Source: a virus
Strand: one strand, 5' to 3'
Length of the DNA: 48,586 nucleotides
IMG/VR virus record: IMGVR_UViG_3300042556_001932
Location: 1-48,586 of that record
The notes under the pieces were generated by a model, which worked only from the letters and a program-made list of their open reading frames with translations, was not told the DNA's origin and did no database searches. Shown here one piece after another: positions 4,789 through 46,943 of the stretch (within the stretch, counting starts at the first letter, position 1; each line of letters starts with the position of its first letter). A program made the translations under genes and the position numbers.

Positions 4789-5036
4789 TCAGGAGCCGGC
4801 TGTCACATGCCTGTCACATAATAGGGAGCCTGTGACAGGTGTGAATGGGGTGGGGGGATGCTGCAGGGCGCGTCCTGTGTTGTCGCATTGTTGCGAACCG
4901 TTCTCAATAGGAAAAACGGGCGCGCGGTGCACCGCGCCAAGGGGAGCCAGGAAGGACCCATCGACTCAGAAGCGTTGCAGGGTCTGCGTTCTAAGACAAC
5001 CGACCCCTGTTGTTTGAAAGAAATCCCCAGGCGGTT
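4789..5036. other. Probable cos packaging region
   Basis: This 248-bp gap has no convincing gene. Next to the terminase small-subunit start are CTGTCACA at 4800-4807 and 4811-4818 and an inverted TGTGACAG at 4831-4838. Further upstream is a perfect 16-bp GC palindrome, GCGCGGTGCACCGCGC at 4922-4937. In lambda, read toward nu1, the order is cosQ, cosN (a dyad cut site), cosB (repeats bound by gpNu1), then nu1. The same order is seen here on the minus strand. Assigning cosN to the palindrome is an inference. Confidence 0.5.
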
Positions 5037-6522: not shown

Positions 6523-6540
6523 AGCTCAAGGCTCAACCTA

Positions 6541-6846
6541 TGGAAATTTCCAACCTTTCCAACTTTCCAACCTTACCAACCGTTTCCTAAAACCCCTTAC
6601 GTGTCCCCTCTACCCCCTCTCCCTCTCTTATTACCTTTCCTTCCTTTTAGGTTGGATAGGTTGGATAGGTAGGATAAAGGCAGGCGCTGCAAGGGATCTG
6701 GGGTTACCAACCTCCCGTAAAAGGTTGGAAACCCAGGGCCTGAGGTTGGAAAGATCAGCCCGCGATGGGGTGATAGGTCCAGCGGAGACGGCCGTTGACA
6801 AGCTGGCGCCGCTTCTGATGGCCAAGTTCCCGGAGTAGGTTGGAAA
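6541..6846. repeat. Iteron cluster, probable replication origin
   Basis: Mostly gene-free (6523-6754) and rich in variants of GGTTGGAAA. Four tandem copies read as the complement (TTTCCAACC at 6547, TTTCCAAC at 6556, TTTCCAACC at 6564, TTACCAACC at 6573). Three tandem nonamers AGGTTGGAT/AGGTTGGAT/AGGTAGGAT fill 6649-6675. A near-palindrome GGTTACCAACC is at 6702, and AGGTTGGAAA is at 6722, 6743 and 6837, the last inside the primase gene. A pyrimidine-rich, AT-richer stretch (6582-6648) separates the groups. Iterons beside an initiator or primase gene are the usual form of phage origins; function here is inferred. Confidence 0.55.
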
Positions 6847-8920
6847 CCTGCATCTGGTCCGATCGGGTCTGCCGCTCGATGGGTTTCTGGATGGCTTCGA
6901 GGAGGATCACCTCAGTGGTGATGGTCTTGCCCCTGTTGGCTGGTGCTGCGAGCCAGGCCTCGATGGGTTCACGCCAGGGAGAGGTAACGAGGTAGGACTC
7001 GTTTTCGGTGTTGACCTGAATGGAGAGCTCGACGGGCAGGTGAGAGGATTCGCCGGCTCGATAGGCGTGGACCGCAGCGGCCCAGATGGCGTCGCGTTCG
7101 AGGGCGAGGGCAGCGGTGTCGATCGGTTCGGTGAGGTGCCTGGTGGTTGGAATGATCCAGAAGCGGCGGTTGCCTGTGGAGTCTTGGAGGAGGCCTTCTG
7201 TGGAGTTGGTGGAGCCGACGATGATGCCGCGGCGTGGGTTGGGCTCCACGGCCTTGCCATAGGGCACACGGAAGGTGTCGATGGCTTGAGTGAGGAAGGC
7301 TTTGATCAGTCCAGCGTGACGACGTGATGTGATGGCGTCGAGCTCTGCCCATTCCATGAGCCAGGAGCGGTGGAGCTTGAGGAGGTCGTCTTTGTTGGAG
7401 AGGTCCCCGAGGGAGTCTGAGAAGAAGGGCCCGCCGAGGCAGGACCAGAAGGAGGATTTACGGGCCTCTTGTGCACCGGCGATGATGCATGAGGTGTCGT
7501 GCTTGCAGCCGGGCTCCATGGCGCGGCGAACGGCACCGATGAGGGTGCAGCGCAGCATGTGGTCGTAGAGGGTGGGTTCCGGGTGTGAGGCGTCTTCTGG
7601 GCGGAGGTAGGTGGTGGCGAGCCGATCGATGTAGGTGGGGGGGACGGTGTCGGCGCAGTGGTTGAGGTAGAGGCAGACGGGGTCGTATGGATGCTCGTGA
7701 GCGACCTGGATGAGGCAATCAACGGCCAGATCCTTGCGGACCTTGTAGCCCTGGTCTGCGAGGTTGAGGTAGAAGCGTTCGATACCCCGGGCGGGTTCGC
7801 CGTCGAGTTCAACTTGCTGATGGAAGGTGTTCCAGCGGATGGCTTGGCCGTCCCTGGCCTGAGAGCGAAGGAGGCTAAGGAGTTCCCGTTCTTCGAGCTT
7901 CTGTGGCTTCTCTGCGGGCCGCTCTGGTGGCTCGTCGGCTGCTGTGCGTGGCTGTGGCGGAGGGGCTTGGGCCCGTGGTGCGCGGGTGTGAAAGGCGAGG
8001 CGTGAGCGGAGCTTGTCTTCTGGTGTGGAGGGATGTGGGTTGTGCTTGTGGGCACCGGAGAAACGGCGCCAGGCCTTGGACTCGGAGAAGTTGGAGTCAA
8101 GAGCGCAAGCGGCAGAGATGTGGAGTTGAAAGGCGTCTTCTGCTGTGAGATCTGTGTTGTGGCCCTGGGCGCGAATCCAGGCCTCGGTGCCGATCAGATC
8201 GAGGGAGAGGGCGAGTTGATCATCGTTCCAGGCGCCAGGTGCACCACCGGACTCGATGATGTTCCGGGAGTCGCGGGAGATGAAGTCGAGGAGGGGTAGG
8301 GCGTCTGCAGTGGATGAGGTGGGCGGGGTTGGTTGTTGTCTGGGTTGTGGTTGTGGGGTGGGTTCAGGCTTGAGGAGCAGCTCAATGAGCGGTGGCGGGG
8401 CCTCGGCGATGGGCAGGTCAGAGGGTGAGCGGCCATTGAGCCAGCGGTAAGCGCCGGTGATGGGGTGATGGCCAGCGACAACAGACTGGTGCGAGGCCCA
8501 GCGGAGTTCGACTTGTTCGGCTTTGCCGTCGCTGTCGAGCTTGCCGGTGCGGAAGACGCGGCGATTGCTGAGGGCGGGCCAGTATTGCTTGGGGACGTGG
8601 AAGAGAAGTTGAAAGCGTCCATCACGGCCGGAGGTAACGGTCTGGGTGATGGGAAGGGATCGAACGGGGATGCCGAGGCGTTCGAGTTCTGCGGTGGCGG
8701 AGATGCCGTCGTGATCAAGGAAGAGGAGGCCACCTGAGGCGGGGCCAGCCTGCACACCGATGGCTTTGGCGCGTCCGGCTTGGATTTCGGCGGTGAGCTG
8801 CTGTGGCGTGAGGGGATGCTCTTGCCAGGCGGGCATGTAGGGGCGCTTGTTGCCATCAACGGCAACGAAGGCCCAATGGGGTGGGAGACTGCTCAGTGCA
8901 GCCAGGAGCTCATCGCGCAT
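6755..8920 (-). CDS. Primase-polymerase/VapE-type helicase fusion
   Basis: Start placed at the ATG at 8920 (MRDELLAALSSLPPHW), where homology-like sequence begins; it overlaps the stop of the ribbon-helix-helix gene by 11 bases. The 721-residue product has an N-terminal prim-pol domain (LLFLDHDG, acidic residues about 69 and 71), a Pro/Gln-rich linker, and a C-terminal VapE/D5-like helicase domain. The P-loop is GAQEARKSS (about 482-490), in which Arg replaces the usual glycine before Lys-Ser. Walker B is LMEWAELD (about 521-528), and a GSTN.. RRFW sensor region follows. It should prime and unwind at the adjacent iteron region. It is probably the replication initiator. Confidence 0.85.
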   Translation of the reverse strand: MRDELLAALSSLPPHWAFVAVDGNKRPYMPAWQEHPLTPQQLTAEIQAGRAKAIGVQAGPASGGLLFLDHDGISATAELERLGIPVRSLPITQTVTSGRDGRFQLLFHVPKQYWPALSNRRVFRTGKLDSDGKAEQVELRWASHQSVVAGHHPITGAYRWLNGRSPSDLPIAEAPPPLIELLLKPEPTPQPQPRQQPTPPTSSTADALPLLDFISRDSRNIIESGGAPGAWNDDQLALSLDLIGTEAWIRAQGHNTDLTAEDAFQLHISAACALDSNFSESKAWRRFSGAHKHNPHPSTPEDKLRSRLAFHTRAPRAQAPPPQPRTAADEPPERPAEKPQKLEERELLSLLRSQARDGQAIRWNTFHQQVELDGEPARGIERFYLNLADQGYKVRKDLAVDCLIQVAHEHPYDPVCLYLNHCADTVPPTYIDRLATTYLRPEDASHPEPTLYDHMLRCTLIGAVRRAMEPGCKHDTSCIIAGAQEARKSSFWSCLGGPFFSDSLGDLSNKDDLLKLHRSWLMEWAELDAITSRRHAGLIKAFLTQAIDTFRVPYGKAVEPNPRRGIIVGSTNSTEGLLQDSTGNRRFWIIPTTRHLTEPIDTAALALERDAIWAAAVHAYRAGESSHLPVELSIQVNTENESYLVTSPWREPIEAWLAAPANRGKTITTEVILLEAIQKPIERQTRSDQMQVSNLLRELGHQKRRQLVNGRLRWTYHPIAG

Positions 8921-9062
8921 CGGAGCGCATCGCGTCAAGGATGAGGCGCTGAAGGATTTGAGAGCGTGAGGTGTGCTCCTGGCGTGCCTGCTGATCAAGC
9001 CAGAGGAGGAGTGGGAGCGGAAGGCGGGTGGTGAAGGGCCGCCTCTGTGGATTGTCCGACAA
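8910..9062 (-). CDS. Small ribbon-helix-helix DNA-binding protein (TTG start)
   Basis: A 50-residue frame, in frame from TTG at 9062 to TGA at 8910, with the form of an Arc/CopG ribbon-helix-helix: a basic beta strand RRPFTTRLP (residues 7-15), helix A LLLWLDQQARQEH (about 18-30), and helix B SRSQILQRLILDAMR (32-46). No ATG is available, so TTG is inferred. It overlaps the primase start by 11 bases and lies within 30 bases of a TACTAT -10-like box at 9090-9095, on the same strand. A likely role is autoregulation of the divergent promoter region or replication control. Confidence 0.6.
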   Translation of the reverse strand: MSDNPQRRPFTTRLPLPLLLWLDQQARQEHTSRSQILQRLILDAMRSDAR

Positions 9063-9147
9063 GCGGTTGCGGTCTGAAGTGCGATCGGTATAGTAGCGGT
9101 GCCAGGTGGCTCAGGCCACTGGCCACACACCCACCCCACAGGATCAG
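9063..9147. promoter_or_regulatory. Divergent promoter region of replication and early genes
   Basis: This gap separates leftward replication genes from the rightward early block. On plus, TTGCGG (9067-9072), 16 bases, then TATAGT (9089-9094) is a plausible promoter. The complement of 9090-9095 gives TACTAT for the minus strand, in the context CGCTACTAT that recurs before genes at 19042 and 20612. A hairpin CCAG(G)TGGC/GCCACTGG occupies about 9101-9119 in the plus leader. AGGA lies 4 bases before the ATG at 9148. Confidence 0.5.
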
Positions 9148-9780
9148 ATGGCAACCAAGAGCACGGTGACGGCGCTGATATCGCCGCCAGACTTCCGGCG
9201 CCTGGAGATCAACATCAGAGGCACGACACCGCTGGTGATGAATCGCTTCAGCGCCAAGGCGATGGAGATCATGCGCAAGACGCAAGAGGCAGGCAGCACG
9301 GCCCGATCAAGGAAGGCCCGTGAGCCGAAGGACTTCGACGCACTCTATGAAGGTGCGAAGCACATCTCAGACGCAGGCTGGGAGGGCATCCATGCGGCTG
9401 CGTTCCGCAATGGTGCGATCAGCGCCTGCCGGGCGTGTGGGTTCAAGATGACCCACGCGAAGCTGGCCTTCATGGTGCTGCATGACGGCTTTGACCGTGT
9501 GGACGGTGCGCCGCTGGTGCGGATCACGAAGGGCGAGGCGGAGCAATGGGTGGCACCAACGAGGAACGCCACGGGAGTGGTGGATCTGAGATGCAGGCCG
9601 ATGTATCGCGAATGGGAAGCCGTGCTGAGGATCCGTTACGACGCCGGGATGTTGACGGCAAATGACGTGACCAACCTGATCAACAGGGTGGGTCTGCAGG
9701 TTGGAATCGGTGAGGGTCGGCCCGATTCAAAAGACAGCGCCGGGATCGGCCTGGGCCTGTTCGAGATCGTGAACGTGTGA
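9148..9780 (+). CDS. Conserved phage protein of unknown function
   Basis: Start at 9148 has AGGA four bases upstream; a longer frame from 9106 has no ribosome site and runs through the leader hairpin. The 210-residue protein begins MATKSTVTALISPPDFRRLE and contains NIRGTTPLVMNRFS (about residues 22-35), a pattern I associate with a phage family of unknown function usually found beside recombination or replication genes. It is soluble and Arg-rich in the middle, with no membrane segment. It is the first gene of the early rightward block and is followed by the pentamer repeat region and a terminator. Confidence 0.75.
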   Translation: MATKSTVTALISPPDFRRLEINIRGTTPLVMNRFSAKAMEIMRKTQEAGSTARSRKAREPKDFDALYEGAKHISDAGWEGIHAAAFRNGAISACRACGFKMTHAKLAFMVLHDGFDRVDGAPLVRITKGEAEQWVAPTRNATGVVDLRCRPMYREWEAVLRIRYDAGMLTANDVTNLINRVGLQVGIGEGRPDSKDSAGIGLGLFEIVNV

Positions 9781-10085: not shown

Positions 10086-10117
10086 GGGGGCGGGATTACC
10101 TGCCCCCAACCTTTTTT
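10086..10117 (+). terminator. Rho-independent terminator
   Basis: GGGGGCGGG (10086-10094) can pair with CCTGCCCCC (10099-10107), with one G-U pair and an ATTA loop, followed by AACC and six T at 10112-10117. It closes the 9148 transcription unit 13 bases before the next ATG. Confidence 0.7.
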
Positions 10118-10130
10118 CTGATCTAATCCA

Positions 10131-10655
10131 ATGACCTATCAATTTCGAGACATTCACTCCATTTTCAATTGCAAGGCAATCACCCCGGAGATCGCCGGCA
10201 CTGAGCTGGACCGCATCTACGAAAAGAATGGTGGGCTTAGGCCTGCAGATGTAGTGGATGAGGCCCGGCCCAACGATGCGCCATTGCATCCTGCCTTTGA
10301 GTGGAACAACAAGGTGGCGGGCGAGAAGTGGCGGCAGGAGCAGGCACGAAACATGATCCGAACGGTTGTGGTCGTGACCCCAGACGAAGACGGGGAGGAG
10401 GTGGAGGAGAAGGTATACGTGAATGTGCGGATGGACAACGAGTCCTGCTATGCACCCACCAGGGTTGTGGTGAGGGACGACGATCTGTTCGAGTCGGCCT
10501 GGAACCAGACGGTGGCGCAGCTGCATGGTGCGCAGAAGAGCTTGGATCAGCTAATGCGAATTGCCAGGGAAGAGCGCCGGCCCGACTCAGCGCGGTATGT
10601 GACAGCCCTGCAGCTGCTGCGGAGGGCGGAGACCGTCATGGTGAAGGGACCATGA
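10131..10655 (+). CDS. Conserved phage protein, unknown function
   Basis: A 174-residue soluble protein. Its N-terminal part contains the phrase TPEIAGTELDRIYEKNGGLR and then SPLHPAFEWNN-like sequence (PLHPAFEWNNKVAGEKWRQ, about residues 51-69), a pattern seen in many phage and prophage proteins of unknown role. An acidic loop DEDGEEVEE (about 85-93) is followed by a C-terminal helical part. Its stop overlaps the helicase start by ATGA, indicating coupled translation. Confidence 0.7.
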   Translation: MTYQFRDIHSIFNCKAITPEIAGTELDRIYEKNGGLRPADVVDEARPNDAPLHPAFEWNNKVAGEKWRQEQARNMIRTVVVVTPDEDGEEVEEKVYVNVRMDNESCYAPTRVVVRDDDLFESAWNQTVAQLHGAQKSLDQLMRIAREERRPDSARYVTALQLLRRAETVMVKGP

Positions 10656-17136: not shown

Positions 17137-17487
17137 ATGGACTGGCAGCCGATTGAATCCGCGCCAAAAGATGGCACTGATGTATTAGTTCTTCTGGATT
17201 GTGCTTCGGTGCCTGTTGTGCATCTTGCTTGGTGGAGAAGCCGTGAGGAGTGGGAGCTGAGCGGTCAATACTGCGGCGGGTGGGACTCTGCTGCAGAATG
17301 GGAAGGCTGGTGGTCTTACACCCAAAACAGCACGACTCAAGAGAAGCTGGACGGGTATCGACTGCCGACTCATTGGATGCCTATGCCCACCCCACCCGTT
17401 ACTGAGATCCCAGTAACGCCCTCTCCGCCGCCTCCGCCACCAAGTGCGGCTGAATGTGCGCCCGGTAGGTCCGGGCGTGCTGGCTAG
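17137..17487 (+). CDS. DUF551-like protein with extended tail
   Basis: A perfect AGGAGG at 17127-17132 selects the ATG at 17137 (MDWQPIESAPKDGTDVLVL). Residues 1-80, with APKDGTDVLVLL, a Trp-rich middle and THWMPMPTPP, look like the small DUF551 phage family. That family normally ends near THWMPLP; here the frame runs about 35 residues further as a Pro-rich tail antisense to the integrase end, as if the native stop was lost when the integrase segment was joined. It is convergent with the integrase and overlaps it by 89 bases. Confidence 0.65.
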   Translation: MDWQPIESAPKDGTDVLVLLDCASVPVVHLAWWRSREEWELSGQYCGGWDSAAEWEGWWSYTQNSTTQEKLDGYRLPTHWMPMPTPPVTEIPVTPSPPPPPPSAAECAPGRSGRAG

Positions 17488-18394
17488 CGGAGTGCCCCAT
17501 CAATCGCGCCGCTGTGTAAATATCTAGCCGGGAGCCGCCCTCTCGCCAAAGCCTGCCAGCGTACGCATGCCGCAGCGCATAGGACCGCCACGGTAACCCC
17601 AGCCGCCTTAGCTCCTTCGAGAGCCACTTCCCAACAGCGTCAGGCCGCTGGTCAGAGCCAGGCCACTGCCGTTGATCCCGCAACCGAAACCGCTTCACCC
17701 ACTCCCGGTGGAGGGGCACCACCGTACGGAATCCGGTCTTGGTGCCATTCGCCACCTGGCAGTAGTCGCGCTCGATCAACGTAGCCCCCTCGATTTCATG
17801 GGGCCGCAGTCCATAGGTGGCCATCATCCCCCAGTACCAAGCTGCCGGGTCCGGGGCCCCCTCCACCCAGGCGATGATCTCCTCATCGGTGGGCACGGCC
17901 ACCAGCGCCGCCTGGCCATAGGTGGGAATGGGCAGCTCTGGAAACGGCACGGCCACCAGGCGCGAGATGTGCCGCAGCAGATACCAGAGTTCCTTGTAGG
18001 AGCAGGTGGCCCGGTCGTAGCGCTGCAGCGCTGCCGCCATCGATTCGGAGGTTACCAGCGAGGTGGGTGGGATCTGCCGCAGCCGGCCCATGTAGTTGAT
18101 CTGCCAAGTGGCCTCGCTGGTCCGCCCCAGCACCACCCGAGCACGGTGGAGCCTGGCGATGGCCTGCCTCCAGGTGGTGCCCCGACTCTCCTCTTGCCAG
18201 TAGGACCACTCGAAGGTGCCAGCGGCGATCTGTTTCTCCAGGGTGGCCAGCTGCTTGGCGGCGTGCCGGCGGTTGGCCGGTGTGTCGTCGAGGCGGAGGG
18301 CGATGCGGGTCTGCTGGCCTCCGGGGCTGCCGTCTCTGCGCGGCACCTTGGCAAGCAGGTAGAGACGCCCGCGCTGGGCGGTGATGCTGGCCAC
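17399..18394 (-). CDS. int: Tyrosine-type site-specific integrase
   Basis: 331 residues. The N-terminal half (1-90) looks like an arm- and core-binding region; the catalytic half has ATYGLRPHEIEG (Arg of box I, about residue 196), a lysine-containing beta turn NGTKTGFRTV, box II LRHAYAGRLW (His-x-x-Arg-like, about 276), GHS (about 302) and ARTYRAH with the nucleophilic tyrosine (about 312). It mediates integration and excision. The stop lies in a 7-bp inverted repeat (17398-17404/17411-17417). It is encoded opposite to the flanking early genes, with the probable attP upstream of it. Confidence 0.92.
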   Translation of the reverse strand: MASITAQRGRLYLLAKVPRRDGSPGGQQTRIALRLDDTPANRRHAAKQLATLEKQIAAGTFEWSYWQEESRGTTWRQAIARLHRARVVLGRTSEATWQINYMGRLRQIPPTSLVTSESMAAALQRYDRATCSYKELWYLLRHISRLVAVPFPELPIPTYGQAALVAVPTDEEIIAWVEGAPDPAAWYWGMMATYGLRPHEIEGATLIERDYCQVANGTKTGFRTVVPLHREWVKRFRLRDQRQWPGSDQRPDAVGKWLSKELRRLGLPWRSYALRHAYAGRLWREGGSRLDIYTAARLMGHSASQHARTYRAHIQPHLVAEAAERALLGSQ

Positions 18395-21081: not shown

Positions 21082-21480
21082 ATGAAGCTACACGGACCGC
21101 AGCTCATTGAGAAGCTGCAATCACTTGGGCCAGATACGCCTGAGCCCGCCCGGATTCGCGCCGCTGGCTACGTGTTCACCCGCCAGGGGCAGGAACGCCT
21201 CAATCGAGCAGGCTTCTACAAAGCCCTTGCCCTCGCGCACATCAACATCGCAGCCCTTGCCGGCCGTCCAGAGGCAAAGCCGACGGGCTACAGGGGCCGA
21301 CGACTCTCTTGGCAAACCAGCGTCCTAGCCCCCGGCCATGCGGTGCTCGGACGCCGCTACCTCGATCAGCTGGGCGTCAAGCCAGGGGATCGACTGCGCA
21401 TCGTGCCAGAACATGGCGCACTGACCATCGAAAAGTGCAGTGATGTCATGCTGGACGGCAATCCAGACCGCACCCCATAA
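21082..21480 (+). CDS. cyAbrB-like transcription regulator
   Basis: 132 residues with the full layout of the cyanobacterial AbrB family. The N-terminal part has GPQLIEKLQSLG, ARIRAAGYVFTRQGQERLNR and FYKALALAH, as in cyAbrB proteins (GYVST..GGERLNFTAFYEALLEA). The C-terminal SpoVT/AbrB-type domain has GRRLSWQTSV and YLDQLGVKPGDRLRI. In cyanobacteria these are global regulators of carbon/nitrogen balance. A phage copy could bind host cyAbrB sites, form mixed oligomers, or control lysogeny. Start ATG at 21082 follows a promoter-like region; the putative repressor follows 35 bases later. Confidence 0.85.
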   Translation: MKLHGPQLIEKLQSLGPDTPEPARIRAAGYVFTRQGQERLNRAGFYKALALAHINIAALAGRPEAKPTGYRGRRLSWQTSVLAPGHAVLGRRYLDQLGVKPGDRLRIVPEHGALTIEKCSDVMLDGNPDRTP

Positions 21481-29890: not shown

Positions 29891-30230
29891 CCATAAGGAA
29901 TGGCTTGTCGAGCAGGTGCTGAAATCCTCCTTGGGCCATAAACTATTGTCCCAGGAGCTGTCACAGCAAATGGGGGAGACTGTCAGCCGTGAAACAGTGC
30001 GGCGCATCCGTGCAGGCACTCTCCACGCCGATGTGTTGCCTGAGATCGAGAGATTTGAGTACAGAAAAGCGCTCTGCACAGCCTGCCAGTTCTATGACCA
30101 CAAGCGCAAAGCGTGCGACATGGGCATTCCAGAGGCAGATCAAAACGCCTGCCTACCCGGTTACAACAATGCTGAGGTCGGGCTCTGTTATGCCCGTCGC
30201 TGTTCGACGTTCATGCCAGCAAATCCCTAG
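29865..30230 (+). CDS. HTH plus Cys-rich regulator candidate
   Basis: About 121 residues from ATG 29865 (ATG 29871 also possible), overlapping the glycosyltransferase stop. N-terminal helices LVEQVLKSSLGHKLLSQELS and SRETVRRIRAGTL resemble a helix-turn-helix; the C-terminal 60 residues carry six cysteines (LCTACQFYDHKRKACD; NACLPGYN; LCYARRCS), likely a metal site. It is the last gene of the rightward block and converges on the NblA-like gene with a 20-base overlap. A regulator role is an inference. Confidence 0.55.
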   Translation: MKMISASHDHKEWLVEQVLKSSLGHKLLSQELSQQMGETVSRETVRRIRAGTLHADVLPEIERFEYRKALCTACQFYDHKRKACDMGIPEADQNACLPGYNNAEVGLCYARRCSTFMPANP

Positions 30231-30474
30231 CCCATTGCCGGTGTTCAGCGCTCACCTCCGCGCCTCCACCATCTAGGCAGCTGAGCTCCATCTCAAGCTC
30301 CAGGCATCGATCAGACAGCCCCTTCACCACCCTCTCCCGATGCCATTGCGCCCACAGGAGTTGATCAGCAAACGCCAGCAGCTCGTCACGGCTCAGGGTC
30401 CGTAGGGCTCGCCGTTGTGTCTCCATCTGGAGCTGTTCCTCCAGCGTTAAATCCCTGATCCTGATTTGTCCCAT
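30211..30474 (-). CDS. NblA-like phycobilisome degradation candidate
   Basis: 87 residues from the ATG at 30474 (a GTG at 30486 is possible). RDLTLEEQLQMETQRRALR followed by TLSRDELLAFADQLLWAQ and HRERVVKGL aligns without gaps to the NblA pattern (LTLEQxFxL..., LS.EQ..ELL..L..Q...., K...L) over about 45 residues. NblA, about 60 residues, is a helix-turn-helix adaptor that brings phycobilisomes to Clp protease; cyanophages are known to carry it. This protein is longer, with an acidic tail (ELEMELSCLDGGG). It is the last leftward gene, after the endolysin. The assignment is by eye only. Confidence 0.5.
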   Translation of the reverse strand: MGQIRIRDLTLEEQLQMETQRRALRTLSRDELLAFADQLLWAQWHRERVVKGLSDRCLELEMELSCLDGGGAEVSAEHRQWARDLLA

Positions 30475-30628
30475 GGCCTTACACACTCCCTATCTGCAGG
30501 TGGGCACCAATGCCAAGGGCGGCTGCTGCTGGCAGGTGGTGATCCTCCCCGGCCTGGTGGTTGATGTCGCCAGTGGAGCGGATGCGGCCAGGGTTTTGCA
30601 CTGCCTTAAGCCCCCGGTCGTGCGGTGA
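30473..30628 (+). CDS. Candidate small plus-strand protein
   Basis: 51 codons, MALHTPYLQVGTNAKGGCCW, then QVVILPGLVVDVASGADAAR. The composition is protein-like. Its ATG shares a CCATGG with the NblA-like start on the other strand, and it fills the 130-bp gap between that gene and the endolysin stop, which it overlaps by 23 bases. No ribosome site is evident. Confidence 0.35.
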   Translation: MALHTPYLQVGTNAKGGCCWQVVILPGLVVDVASGADAARVLHCLKPPVVR

Positions 30629-31325
30629 TCATCCACCCGTCATTGCCCATCGGCACCCATCGAGGCCTCCAGTTCCGGTTTCCATACTCAATACTTCTGC
30701 CCGCACCAACAGCAGTGGAGATGTAGCCGCCGCCAATCAGGTTGGCTTCTCCATAGGGATCGTGGTGAATCCAGCTGTTGTTGGTGTAGCCGATGATCAC
30801 GCTCCAGTGGCCCCCACCGGTCGGCGCATGGACCGGGCCGTGGTGGAGCCACCCAACGGCAACAGGCCGGCCAGCATCGAGCTCTGCGTAGAGGATGGCT
30901 GGGTTGCCATTGGTGCGCAGGGTGGCGGTGAGCCCCAGCTCGCTCAATGTGGCCACGTTGGCGTTTGGATTGGTCGTCTCACCATGGCGACGCCTGAGCT
31001 GTCGATAGGCGTCATCGGTCGACACCTTGCCATGAAAGGCCGCAAGCATCGCGCAGGAGGAAGAGCAGCAATGGCGCCAGCCAGGGCCGTCGAAATCATC
31101 GGCATCATCCATCTGGCTGAAGTAGGGCACCGTCAGCGGCTTCCCCTTCGGCTGGCGTCCGTCCTGGCTCCAGATCTTGAACCATTCCTGATCTCGCCGC
31201 ATCACTTCGGCATAGGGCCGCCCCTTGCGCAGTTCCTCCTCGAGGGCCTTCACCGCTGCCGACTGATGGGGCAGATCACGACGATAGAAGCGAAACAGTT
31301 GATCCAGGCTGATAGGGGAACTCAT
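30606..31325 (-). CDS. Endolysin, C39-like cysteine peptidase
   Basis: 239 residues. LTVPYFSQMDD (Gln about 71), CCSSSCAML (Cys about 86 in the C-x6-M pattern), GGHWSVIIGY (His about 172) and WIHHDPYGE (Asp about 188) give the Gln/Cys/His/Asp arrangement of the C39-like papain fold. N-terminal 60 residues are helical and charged. Related phage proteins cut peptidoglycan cross-links. It follows the holin-like gene with ATGA overlap and has no signal peptide, so release would need the holin. Confidence 0.85.
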   Translation of the reverse strand: MSSPISLDQLFRFYRRDLPHQSAAVKALEEELRKGRPYAEVMRRDQEWFKIWSQDGRQPKGKPLTVPYFSQMDDADDFDGPGWRHCCSSSCAMLAAFHGKVSTDDAYRQLRRRHGETTNPNANVATLSELGLTATLRTNGNPAILYAELDAGRPVAVGWLHHGPVHAPTGGGHWSVIIGYTNNSWIHHDPYGEANLIGGGYISTAVGAGRSIEYGNRNWRPRWVPMGNDGWMITARPGA

Positions 31326-31615
31326 TTGGTTCGCTCTATAGGTTGGCCGAACTCCAGCCGTGGGGAGGCCGCAGTTACTGCGAAAGGAATCACAAACGTG
31401 AGCGCGGCAGAGATGGCCATCACTTGCGCCATGCGGATCTTTAGCCCCTCGTTTGCGGATTTAAGGGTCTTGAGTTCGCCCTTAATTTCCTCAATCTCTT
31501 TGTCGTGCCCACTGGTCACATTGTTGATCGCGTCTCGAATTGTTTTCAGCTCCTGTTGCATGAGCCGCAGCTGCACCAGCAGCTCGACATGGGTGACCGG
31601 CGGTTCCTGCTCCAT
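31322..31615 (-). CDS. Holin-like protein (XhlA-like layout)
   Basis: 97 residues: an N-terminal coiled coil (VELLVQLRLMQQELKTIRDA to EIEEIKGELKTLKSANEGLK) and one transmembrane helix near the C-terminus (AQVMAISAALTFVIPFAVTA, about 63-82). This matches haemolysin XhlA-type lysis proteins. GGGAGG lies just before the ATG. It is divergent from the sigma factor gene, from which it is separated by 50 bp, and overlaps the endolysin start. Confidence 0.75.
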   Translation of the reverse strand: MEQEPPVTHVELLVQLRLMQQELKTIRDAINNVTSGHDKEIEEIKGELKTLKSANEGLKIRMAQVMAISAALTFVIPFAVTAASPRLEFGQPIERTK

Positions 31616-31665
31616 TCCTCCCAGTTTAGAGACCGTTTACAGTTGCGACCAAAACCGCCAGCGCA
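31616..31665. promoter_or_regulatory. Divergent promoter region, lysis/sigma
   Basis: 50 bp between the holin-like ATG (minus) and sigma ATG (plus). On minus, TTGGTC, 18 bases, TAAACT is a weak promoter match toward the lysis genes. GTCGCAACTGTAAACGG on minus resembles ACCGCAACAGTTTGTGAACCG near 18938, which may be a shared site. No clear ribosome site precedes the sigma ATG. Confidence 0.3.
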
Positions 31666-32658
31666 ATGGTCAGCGAGCAGCAAGCATGGCTCGACGCCGC
31701 TGGGCGGGTGCCACTGCTGACCACTGCGGAGGAGATCACGCTAGGTCGATGGGTGCAAGCCGCCGCTGGCATTGATCAGGACTCAACCGATCCAGACCAT
31801 CAACGGGCACTCAGGCGGGCCCAGCGTGCGCGTGCGCGCCTCTGTTCCGCCAATCTCCGACTGGTTTACACAGTGGCCAAAGGCTACCGGTCACTGGTGC
31901 CAGACCATCAGTTCCTCGACCTACTGCAGGCTGGAGCGGAGGGTGTGCTGCACGCGGCGGGGAAGTTCGACCCAGAGCTGGGCTACAAATTTTCCACCTA
32001 TTCCGCCATCTGGATCCGCCAGAGGATCCAGATTGAACTCGATCGACATAGCCGCACCATCCGAGCACCGAGCACGATCACCCCACGCCTGAGGCGGCTG
32101 CCTCGAGTGCGTCAATTGCTCACGCAAGAGCTCGGCCGCGAGCCATCCCTGGAGGAGCTGGCGACGGGGCTGGGCATGGCGCCTGGTGAGCTGCTGCTGG
32201 CGCGGCAACGGGCCGGCCCAACGGTCAGCCTTGATCAGTGCCTCGATGGAGACACCACAACAACTCTGGCAGATCTTCAGTCAACGCCTGCCAGCGAAGA
32301 ACATGATGAGCAGTTGGAGCTGTTACGCGAGGCGATGGCCAGGATGCCCAGGCGCCAGCGGGTCCTGCTGAGGGCTGCGCACTTGCCGGGCGGGCCAACA
32401 CTCGCTCAGGCTGCCCAGATCGAGGGCGTGTCCGTTGCCGAGGCGCGGTCGATTGTTCAGCGGGGGCTGGCACGACTCAAGCTGCTGCGGCCAGTGTTGT
32501 CGCAGCATCGGCAGCTCACGCTGCCACTGCCTGAGGTGCCGATCTGCCAGCGGGCCCCAGGTCCAAGGCGCCGCCGCCGCTGCCATCACCAGGACAATCA
32601 TGAGCAGCTGGTGCTGTTTCACAGCCGACAGCTGCGCAAGTTGATTTCTGCATCGTAG
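31666..32658 (+). CDS. Phage-encoded sigma-70 factor (group 2-like)
   Basis: 330 residues with regions in order: 1.2 (LTTAEEITLGRWVQAA, about 18-33), 2.1-2.4 (ANLRLVYTVAKGYRS, FLDLLQAGAEGVLHAAGKFD, YKFSTYSAIWIRQRI, SRTIRAPS; about 62-136), 3 (TQELGREPSLEELA, about 153-166), and 4 (MPRRQRVLLRAAHLP and a helix-turn-helix LAQAAQIEGVSVAEARSIVQ, about 227-266). It resembles cyanobacterial group 2 sigmas and should redirect host RNA polymerase. The last 50 residues after region 4 are Arg/Gln-rich, unlike the family, and overlap the 3' end of 32619-32990. It is encoded against the late operon around it. Confidence 0.9.
   Translation: MVSEQQAWLDAAGRVPLLTTAEEITLGRWVQAAAGIDQDSTDPDHQRALRRAQRARARLCSANLRLVYTVAKGYRSLVPDHQFLDLLQAGAEGVLHAAGKFDPELGYKFSTYSAIWIRQRIQIELDRHSRTIRAPSTITPRLRRLPRVRQLLTQELGREPSLEELATGLGMAPGELLLARQRAGPTVSLDQCLDGDTTTTLADLQSTPASEEHDEQLELLREAMARMPRRQRVLLRAAHLPGGPTLAQAAQIEGVSVAEARSIVQRGLARLKLLRPVLSQHRQLTLPLPEVPICQRAPGPRRRRRCHHQDNHEQLVLFHSRQLRKLISAS
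32323..32622 (-). CDS. Candidate small membrane protein antisense to sigma
   Basis: 99 residues from GTG at 32622, overlapping the previous tail gene stop as GTGA, the style of this operon. Starts MKQHQLLMIVLVMAAAAAPW, a signal-anchor-like helix, followed by a polar Gln/Arg/Pro-rich part; a spanin- or holin-like role is conceivable at the tail/lysis border. It lies wholly antisense to sigma region 4 and tail, so it may be a chance frame. Confidence 0.3.
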   Translation of the reverse strand: MKQHQLLMIVLVMAAAAAPWTWGPLADRHLRQWQRELPMLRQHWPQQLESCQPPLNNRPRLGNGHALDLGSLSECWPARQVRSPQQDPLAPGHPGHRLA

Positions 32659-32990
32659 AGATCGAAGTTTCGTGGCTTCTCTTCTGGCTCATCGGCATAG
32701 AGCCAGCTCTGGTGCTTCAGGAAGACATCATCGAGTTCTCCGTAGCCTGCTAGCACAACGTCGGGCAGGGAGAAATGGTGCACGGACTGCTGGCCAAGGT
32801 AGTGGTCGCGGATCAGTTGCATTTCCGCTTCGCTGATCAGCTCATACACCAAGGTGAGAGGCAGATCCGTGGGCGTTGAGCCAAATTCAAACGAGATCGT
32901 CCCGCCTCCTGCTCCCTCATAATCAGCAGTCGGGAAGGCGGGGAATTCCCACTCCCGCCTCACGGGCATCAGAGGTGGAAAGACTGCCAT
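32619..32990 (-). CDS. Tail protein, paralogue of the 33445 N-domain
   Basis: 123 residues: MAVFPPLMPVRREWEFPAFP, GGTISFEFGSTPTDLPLTLV, HYLGQQSVHHFSLPDVV and NFDLYDAEINLRS. The order of strand, ISDANA-like helix (LISEAEMQLIRDHYLG), F-LP and a final V-L motif is like a small cyanophage tail domain and the first 140 residues of the 33445 protein. Probably a tail tip or baseplate component. It is followed by lysis genes. Confidence 0.6.
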   Translation of the reverse strand: MAVFPPLMPVRREWEFPAFPTADYEGAGGGTISFEFGSTPTDLPLTLVYELISEAEMQLIRDHYLGQQSVHHFSLPDVVLAGYGELDDVFLKHQSWLYADEPEEKPRNFDLYDAEINLRSCRL

Positions 32991-46905: not shown

Positions 46906-46943
46906 GGGATCAGATCAGAATGGGAAAAACGGGTGGGGGCCGA

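Follow-up and report, generated by a model that had tools for sequence, protein, structure and literature searches.

A phage sigma-70 factor with clamp-binding-like peptides in its C-terminal tail, encoded among the late genes of a probable cyanosiphovirus

Introduction

In T4-type phages that encode a clamp of their own, it is already established that a sliding clamp couples late transcription to replication. The C-terminus of the T4 late sigma factor, gp55, is an epitope that binds the clamp and is attached by a flexible linker of divergent sequence; the clamp activates late transcription (PMC2988020). gp55 lacks sigma domain 4 and uses gp33 together with the phage clamp gp45. Bacterial beta clamps are bound through the motif QL[S/D]LF or, more broadly, QxxLF, with QLSLPL of Hda as a tight-binding peptide (PMC12309361), and transposase C-termini carry QLxLF (PMC4549789). 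No report of a clamp-binding peptide in a sigma factor that uses the host clamp was found in the literature that we searched.

Sigma factors are present in 65 of 153 cyanophage genomes covered by a recent review (PMC10452541), and P-SS2 has two (PMC2784084). Annotated homologs are encoded by S-LBS1 (34.6 kb), S-CBS3 (33.0 kb), S-CBS1 (30.3 kb), and KBS-S-2A (40.7 kb); sigma genes are thus ordinary in cyanosiphoviruses of 30–41 kb, contrary to the suggestion in an initial annotation of the locus described here that such a gene is uncommon in a phage this small. The sigmas of S-CBS1, S-CBS3, and KBS-S-2A, which are annotated as group 2 or RpoD, comprise sigma-70 domains 2–4 and follow the cyanosiphovirus pattern of a gene at the early/late junction.

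Here, we describe a sigma gene in a 48,586-nucleotide viral sequence (IMG/VR record IMGVR_UViG_3300042556_001932, positions 1–48,586; hereafter the window). Its closest described counterpart is the sigma of S-LBS1 (SLBS1_A33, ATS93205.1), which belongs to the same clade, has a non-canonical region 4.2 and a QLxL-type tail, overlaps a small convergent NblA-like gene, and is flanked by opposite-strand genes on both sides. The two proteins are only 36% identical, and the S-LBS1 gene differs in retaining W433, in having its own promoter element, and in following the usual placement of the lysis genes. The sigmas of S-CBS1, S-CBS3, and KBS-S-2A differ further from that of the window in that they have canonical -35 residues, belong to other clades, and are without the QLxL tail.

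Results

Genomic Context of the Window

The window looks like the genome of a cyanosiphovirus, based on its gene content and strand organization. It contains a prim-pol gene (6755–9154), plus-strand early genes, and minus-strand late genes that start on the side of the terminase, continue across the ends of the record, and reach position 30211. No end repeats were found in the IMG/VR record, and a megablast search of the window against sequenced phages yielded no match. A probable tyrosine integrase (17399–18394, minus strand; PHROG_1, E = 2e-12; Arm-DNA-bind_2, E = 1.6e-7) is the lone minus-strand gene within the early region and suggests that the phage may be temperate; a search of the window for a serine integrase detected none. 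A phage-encoded, cyanobacterial-type AbrB-like regulator is located at 21082–21480 on the plus strand (PF14250, E = 8.6e-7). Iteron-like inverted repeats (CCAACCT/AGGTTGG) that represent a candidate replication origin lie directly after prim-pol both in the window (6523–6754) and in S-LBS1 (L329; 34237–34641). The sequence TTCTGATCTRATCC occurs twice, at 10116–10129 (plus strand) and 46907–46920 (minus strand), just before the starts of the genes at 10131 (plus) and 46905 (minus); these copies, which are not conserved in relatives, possibly provide extended anti-Shine-Dalgarno pairing.

Identity and Fold of the Sigma Factor

The gene at 31666–32658 on the plus strand has an ATG start and an unbroken frame of 330 codons, and it encodes a sigma-70-family phage factor. 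Pfam profiles of region 2 (core binding and -10 recognition; 31846–32055; Sigma70_r2, E = 8.4e-13) and region 3 (32089–32286; E = 3.7e-9) scored above their cut-offs, whereas those of region 4 (32332–32481; E = 2.6e-4) and region 1.2 (E = 3.2e-3) fell below the curated cut-offs and were nonetheless alignable to the protein. The PHROG_351 sigma profile matched with E = 2.9e-41, and each of the IMG/VR scans conducted with the sigma had more than 570 relatives among the matches listed. An AlphaFold2 model built on a 66-sequence alignment had a mean pLDDT of 84.8 with every domain folded, including values above 90 across most of regions 1.2–2 and in regions 3 and 4; the tail, from approximately residue 283 onward, was predicted to be disordered (pLDDT ~45–50). 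The nearest folds in the PDB, as identified by Foldseek, were SigA chains of initiation complexes (E ~1e-14), and SigA chains were also the best solved relatives by sequence. The protein can thus be considered a complete sigma-70 factor, as originally proposed. Codon-position GC content of the gene (0.73/0.49/0.71) is typical for the genome.

Promoter-Reading Residues, Phylogeny, and Selection

The roles of sigma-70 residues in core binding, -10 melting and reading, and -35 reading are well established and are referred to here by RpoD numbering. When aligned with E. coli RpoD, the window sigma retains the core-binding residues D403 and Q406 as well as Y425, T429, Y430, W434, and Q437, which are involved in -10 melting and reading. 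Substitutions were identified at W433 (to I), T440 (to Q), and R441 (to I), and the -35 triad R584/E585/R588 reads V/A/R. Isoleucine at position 433 was considered as a unique mark of the window copy and rejected, since it is present in other phage sigmas. A full -35 triad, defined as R or K, E or D, and R or K, was detected in 79 of 80 cyanobacterial sigmas versus 36 of 93 phage sigmas, and triads vary widely inside the clade that comprises the window and S-LBS1 sigmas. By sequence, the window sigma therefore keeps core-binding and most promoter-melting determinants, with divergence of its -35-reading residues and of some of its -10-reading residues.

Phylogenetic reconstruction against host sigmas, as called for in the initial annotation, placed the window and S-LBS1 sigmas in a clade composed of phages only (SH-aLRT 99), and this clade was maintained at SH-aLRT 98 after long branches and tails were removed. 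Together with the PHROG_351 match, this assigns the protein to the cyanosiphovirus sigmas of the S-LBS1 clade, in which it forms the longest branch. Its score against TIGR02997, the cyanobacterial group 2/RpoD-like family, was 164.9 bits versus a cut-off of 384.5. Neither this score, the V/A/R triad, nor the phage-only clade is what would be expected of a mimic of a host group 2 sigma, which had been suggested as one possible role; the -35-reading residues that nearly all cyanobacterial sigmas keep have been lost.

Ratios of dN/dS were mostly 0.03–0.27 among close pairs in the sigma family, and in most cases region 4 had evolved more rapidly than region 2; these ratios describe the close pairs, as no relative of the window copy exceeds ~41% identity over its length. 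They indicate that the family is under purifying selection. As far as its residues and these family-level ratios reach, the gene shows neither of the features that had been named as evidence against a functional factor, namely missing core-binding residues or decay of a host gene under no selection. Collectively, the residue and dN/dS patterns are those of a functioning sigma with promoter recognition that has diverged from the host's, rather than those of a mimic or a wreck.

Position of the Sigma Gene Relative to Late Genes

The sigma gene is embedded head-on in the late operon, as initially noted, with tail genes on one side and lysis genes on the other, all on the minus strand. At its 3' end it overlaps tail-to-tail by 40 nt (32619–32658) with a gene for a minor tail protein (32619–32990, minus strand; PHROG_15525); the overlap that had been described is therefore real but involves one tail gene and not several. 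Overlaps with convergent neighbors also occur in S-LBS1 and KBS-S-2A (24 and 35 nt, respectively). Upstream, a divergent intergenic region of 50 nt (31616–31665) without a recognizable sigma-70 promoter separates the gene from the lysis block, which comprises a 97-aa coiled-coil/membrane protein that is holin-like by position (31322–31615, minus strand) and an endolysin (30606–31325, minus strand; PHROG_10051, E = 2e-62; Peptidase_C39_2).

A survey of 111 distinct sigma loci revealed a consistent layout. The nearest endolysin homolog was downstream and on the opposite strand in 75 of the 76 loci with a detectable endolysin, indicating that sigma is normally the last gene of the early operon. 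Tail genes were likewise downstream and opposite in all 17 loci where they were found. Of 37 loci with a recombination or replication gene, 36 had the nearest such gene upstream of sigma and co-directional with it, and a small opposite-strand gene followed sigma in 58 distinct cases. The usual order is early genes and sigma on one strand, followed on the other strand by the convergent small gene, the endolysin, (small genes), and tail genes. The window departs from this order: the small gene, endolysin, and holin-like gene lie on the early side of sigma, the endolysin being upstream, which places sigma between tail and lysis genes. Enclosure by lysis genes was unmatched among the surveyed loci; full enclosure as such has a precedent in S-LBS1, where opposite-strand genes lie on both flanks. 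These observations suggest that the window sigma gene left its place at the early/late junction and now lies within the late operon, upstream of the lysis block, although an assembly error at the junction may be the source of the rearranged position. Single-sequence IMG/VR scans with the window tail protein and endolysin identified no relatives.

The small gene (30211–30486, minus strand) encodes an NblA-like protein; NblA is a phycobilisome degradation family. Counterparts include S-LBS1 A32, S-CBS1 gp26, and KBS-S-2A CPKG_00010, amounting to the 58 distinct IMG/VR and phage cases. In most relatives, the gene immediately follows sigma and runs in the opposite direction; in the window it has been kept with the lysis block. 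PF04485 (NblA) matched the window protein below its cut-off (E = 0.04) and was not found among the small proteins of 15 relatives. A profile of the small-protein family matched all four NblA structures (E = 2.5e-4 to 9e-4), and a Foldseek search with the protein model gave no match. The nblA genes listed for cyanophages are from podo- and myoviruses (PMC9602691), and those resembling NblA in siphoviruses are annotated as hypothetical.

Clamp-Binding-Like Peptides in the Disordered Tail

Following region 4.2, the disordered tail contains a hexapeptide, QLTLPL (residues 283–288; 32512–32529, plus strand), in the context RQLTLPLPE, and a pentapeptide, QLVLF (residues 314–318; 32605–32619, plus strand), in the context EQLVLF. 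Both resemble clamp-binding peptides and occur where pLDDT is ~45–50; peptides of this pattern, likewise in disordered regions, are found in Hda (QLSLPL), PolC (QLSLF), and transposase C-termini (PMC12309361, PMC4549789). Tails of relatives include the exact consensus forms QLSLF, within EQLSLFAA (L261 and L264), and QLSLPL (L260), as well as QLALF (L280), EQLSLP (L171), and, at the extreme C-terminal end, EQLTLL (L168); the S-LBS1 tail has the weak form QLVLV.

QLx[L/I] was identified in 16 of 19 non-redundant tails of the clade, compared to a mean of 1.18 and a maximum of 7 in 2000 shuffles, and the pentapeptide form in nine of the 19 (shuffled mean, 0.42), and the motif was 34 times as dense in the tails as in the protein bodies; these statistics are inflated by common ancestry, since shuffling does not model kinship. 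The motif was detected in 4 of 47 other phage sigmas (P = 4e-9 against the clade) and in none of 80 cellular (cyanobacterial) sigmas. Among sequences fetched later and less than 70% identical to all earlier ones, it was present in 4 of the 7 nearest the clade versus 1 of the 20 nearest the others (P = 0.009). The glutamine column was invariant in a 10-sequence alignment of tails that are otherwise poorly alignable. By sequence, the sigma tail thus carries a clade-specific peptide matching clamp-binding motifs.

Two tandem sigma genes are encoded by each of five related phages (L008, L010, L077, L261, and L264). In L261 and L264, QLSLF is found in the tail of only one of the two sigmas, as a two-step cascade would predict; the paired sigmas belong to different clades.

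Promoter Motifs

The initial annotation had proposed CGCAACNGT as a shared late-promoter motif. It occurs at five exact sites in the window and, with one mismatch, at 64 sites compared to 44 ± 8 expected. An EM search of the late intergenic regions of the window yielded scores within those of shuffles, and gains obtained with larger sets were attributed to coding composition and rejected. CGCAAC was detected in four of the nine intergenic regions on the late strand, a count that some hexamer reaches in ~47% of simulations. Individual candidates fared no better: the CGCAACNGT site before the major tail protein gene is missing from a 62%-identical relative (L091), and CGCAAC before terS is half of a palindrome conserved in relatives. 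With no common motif beyond shuffles and no conservation of the sites, we do not retain CGCAACNGT as a late promoter. A scan for sigma-70 promoters gave as many matches in the window as in shuffles, with none near sigma.

The region upstream of terS (4789–5036, minus strand), which is shared with approximately 20 relatives, contains the palindrome TTGAGAACNNTTCGCAACAA followed by repeated TGTCACA/TGTGACA sites and may be a control or packaging region. A conserved promoter-like element, composed of CCGNATNKGCACC and a subsequent TATAGT or TATGAT, directly precedes sigma in S-LBS1 and in three of its relatives; its positions are 22978 and 31862 in S-LBS1 (L329), 12904 and 3915 in G011, 9944 in L053, and 9939 in L085. 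The second copy in S-LBS1 and in G011 precedes the primase, and the two copies within each genome resemble each other, which is suggestive of joint expression of sigma and replication genes in these phages. The pattern had no match elsewhere in the fetched loci and is absent from the window.

Discussion

Switching on late promoters is the most plausible role for the window sigma. We propose that it would bind the host core RNA polymerase and redirect it, after early expression, to phage promoters that are most likely late. The disordered tail, through QLTLPL and QLVLF, would anchor the resulting holoenzyme on DnaN, the sliding clamp of the host; as no recognizable beta clamp is encoded in the window, it is the host clamp that would be used. 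Such tethering would make late transcription dependent on replicating DNA and less dependent on a strong -35 element, as with T4 gp55 and gp45. Since the gene appears to have moved into the late operon, antisense late transcription might, more speculatively, also damp its expression. Taken as a whole, promoter redirection combined with replication coupling through the host clamp falls, in our estimation, slightly short of an even chance.

The likeness to T4 is that of a phage sigma with a C-terminal peptide of the clamp-binding type on a flexible, divergent linker. In contrast to gp55, the window sigma has domain 4, and in the proposed model it would work like gp55 without being a homolog or a member of its family. 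That this branch of cyanosiphovirus sigmas couples late transcription to replication by T4-like logic, via C-terminal peptides and the host clamp, is put forward tentatively and with some doubt; similar doubt attaches to the idea that the logic is reached by another route, with a full-length sigma, the host clamp, and no gp33.

The tail may instead be an inherited hydrophobic peptide on a plain alternative sigma that serves phage promoters without clamp coupling, in which case QLxL would have another partner, such as the RNA polymerase flap or a different protein of the phage, or would serve no function. In its favor, the motif is missing from most other cyanosiphovirus sigmas, which presumably still work, and members of the clade have common ancestry; against it stand a glutamine that is invariant in tails otherwise unalignable, the recurrence of exact consensus motifs, and replication of the pattern on fresh sequences. 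We regard this explanation as a serious one, if rather doubtful. Another explanation is a host-like group 2 sigma that acts in lysogens or reprograms the host's stress or carbon-metabolism genes. According to PMC10452541, the metabolism of S. elongatus changed upon expression of the S-CBS2 and S-CBS3 sigmas, and the phage has a probable integrase, but the phage-only clade, the lost -35-reading residues, and a score less than half the cut-off for the cyanobacterial RpoD family make this role improbable. A displaced, decaying copy that no longer functions seems more improbable still: the intact frame, genome-typical codon-position GC, and retention of most invariant family residues and of both clamp-like peptides argue against decay, despite a position unlike that of 75 of 76 relatives, the longest branch in the clade, the lack of a recognizable promoter, and the substitutions W433I, T440Q, and R441I, the first of which other phage sigmas share.

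If host-clamp coupling is true, small siphophages without a clamp that place clamp peptides on a full sigma would represent a second, convergent solution to replication-coupled late transcription, one that uses host parts. The wide variation of -35-reading residues within one clade offers a natural series for studies of sigma specificity. Finally, the cyanosiphovirus layout of early operon, sigma, opposite NblA-like gene, endolysin, and tail provides a clue to what a small gene annotated as hypothetical may do.
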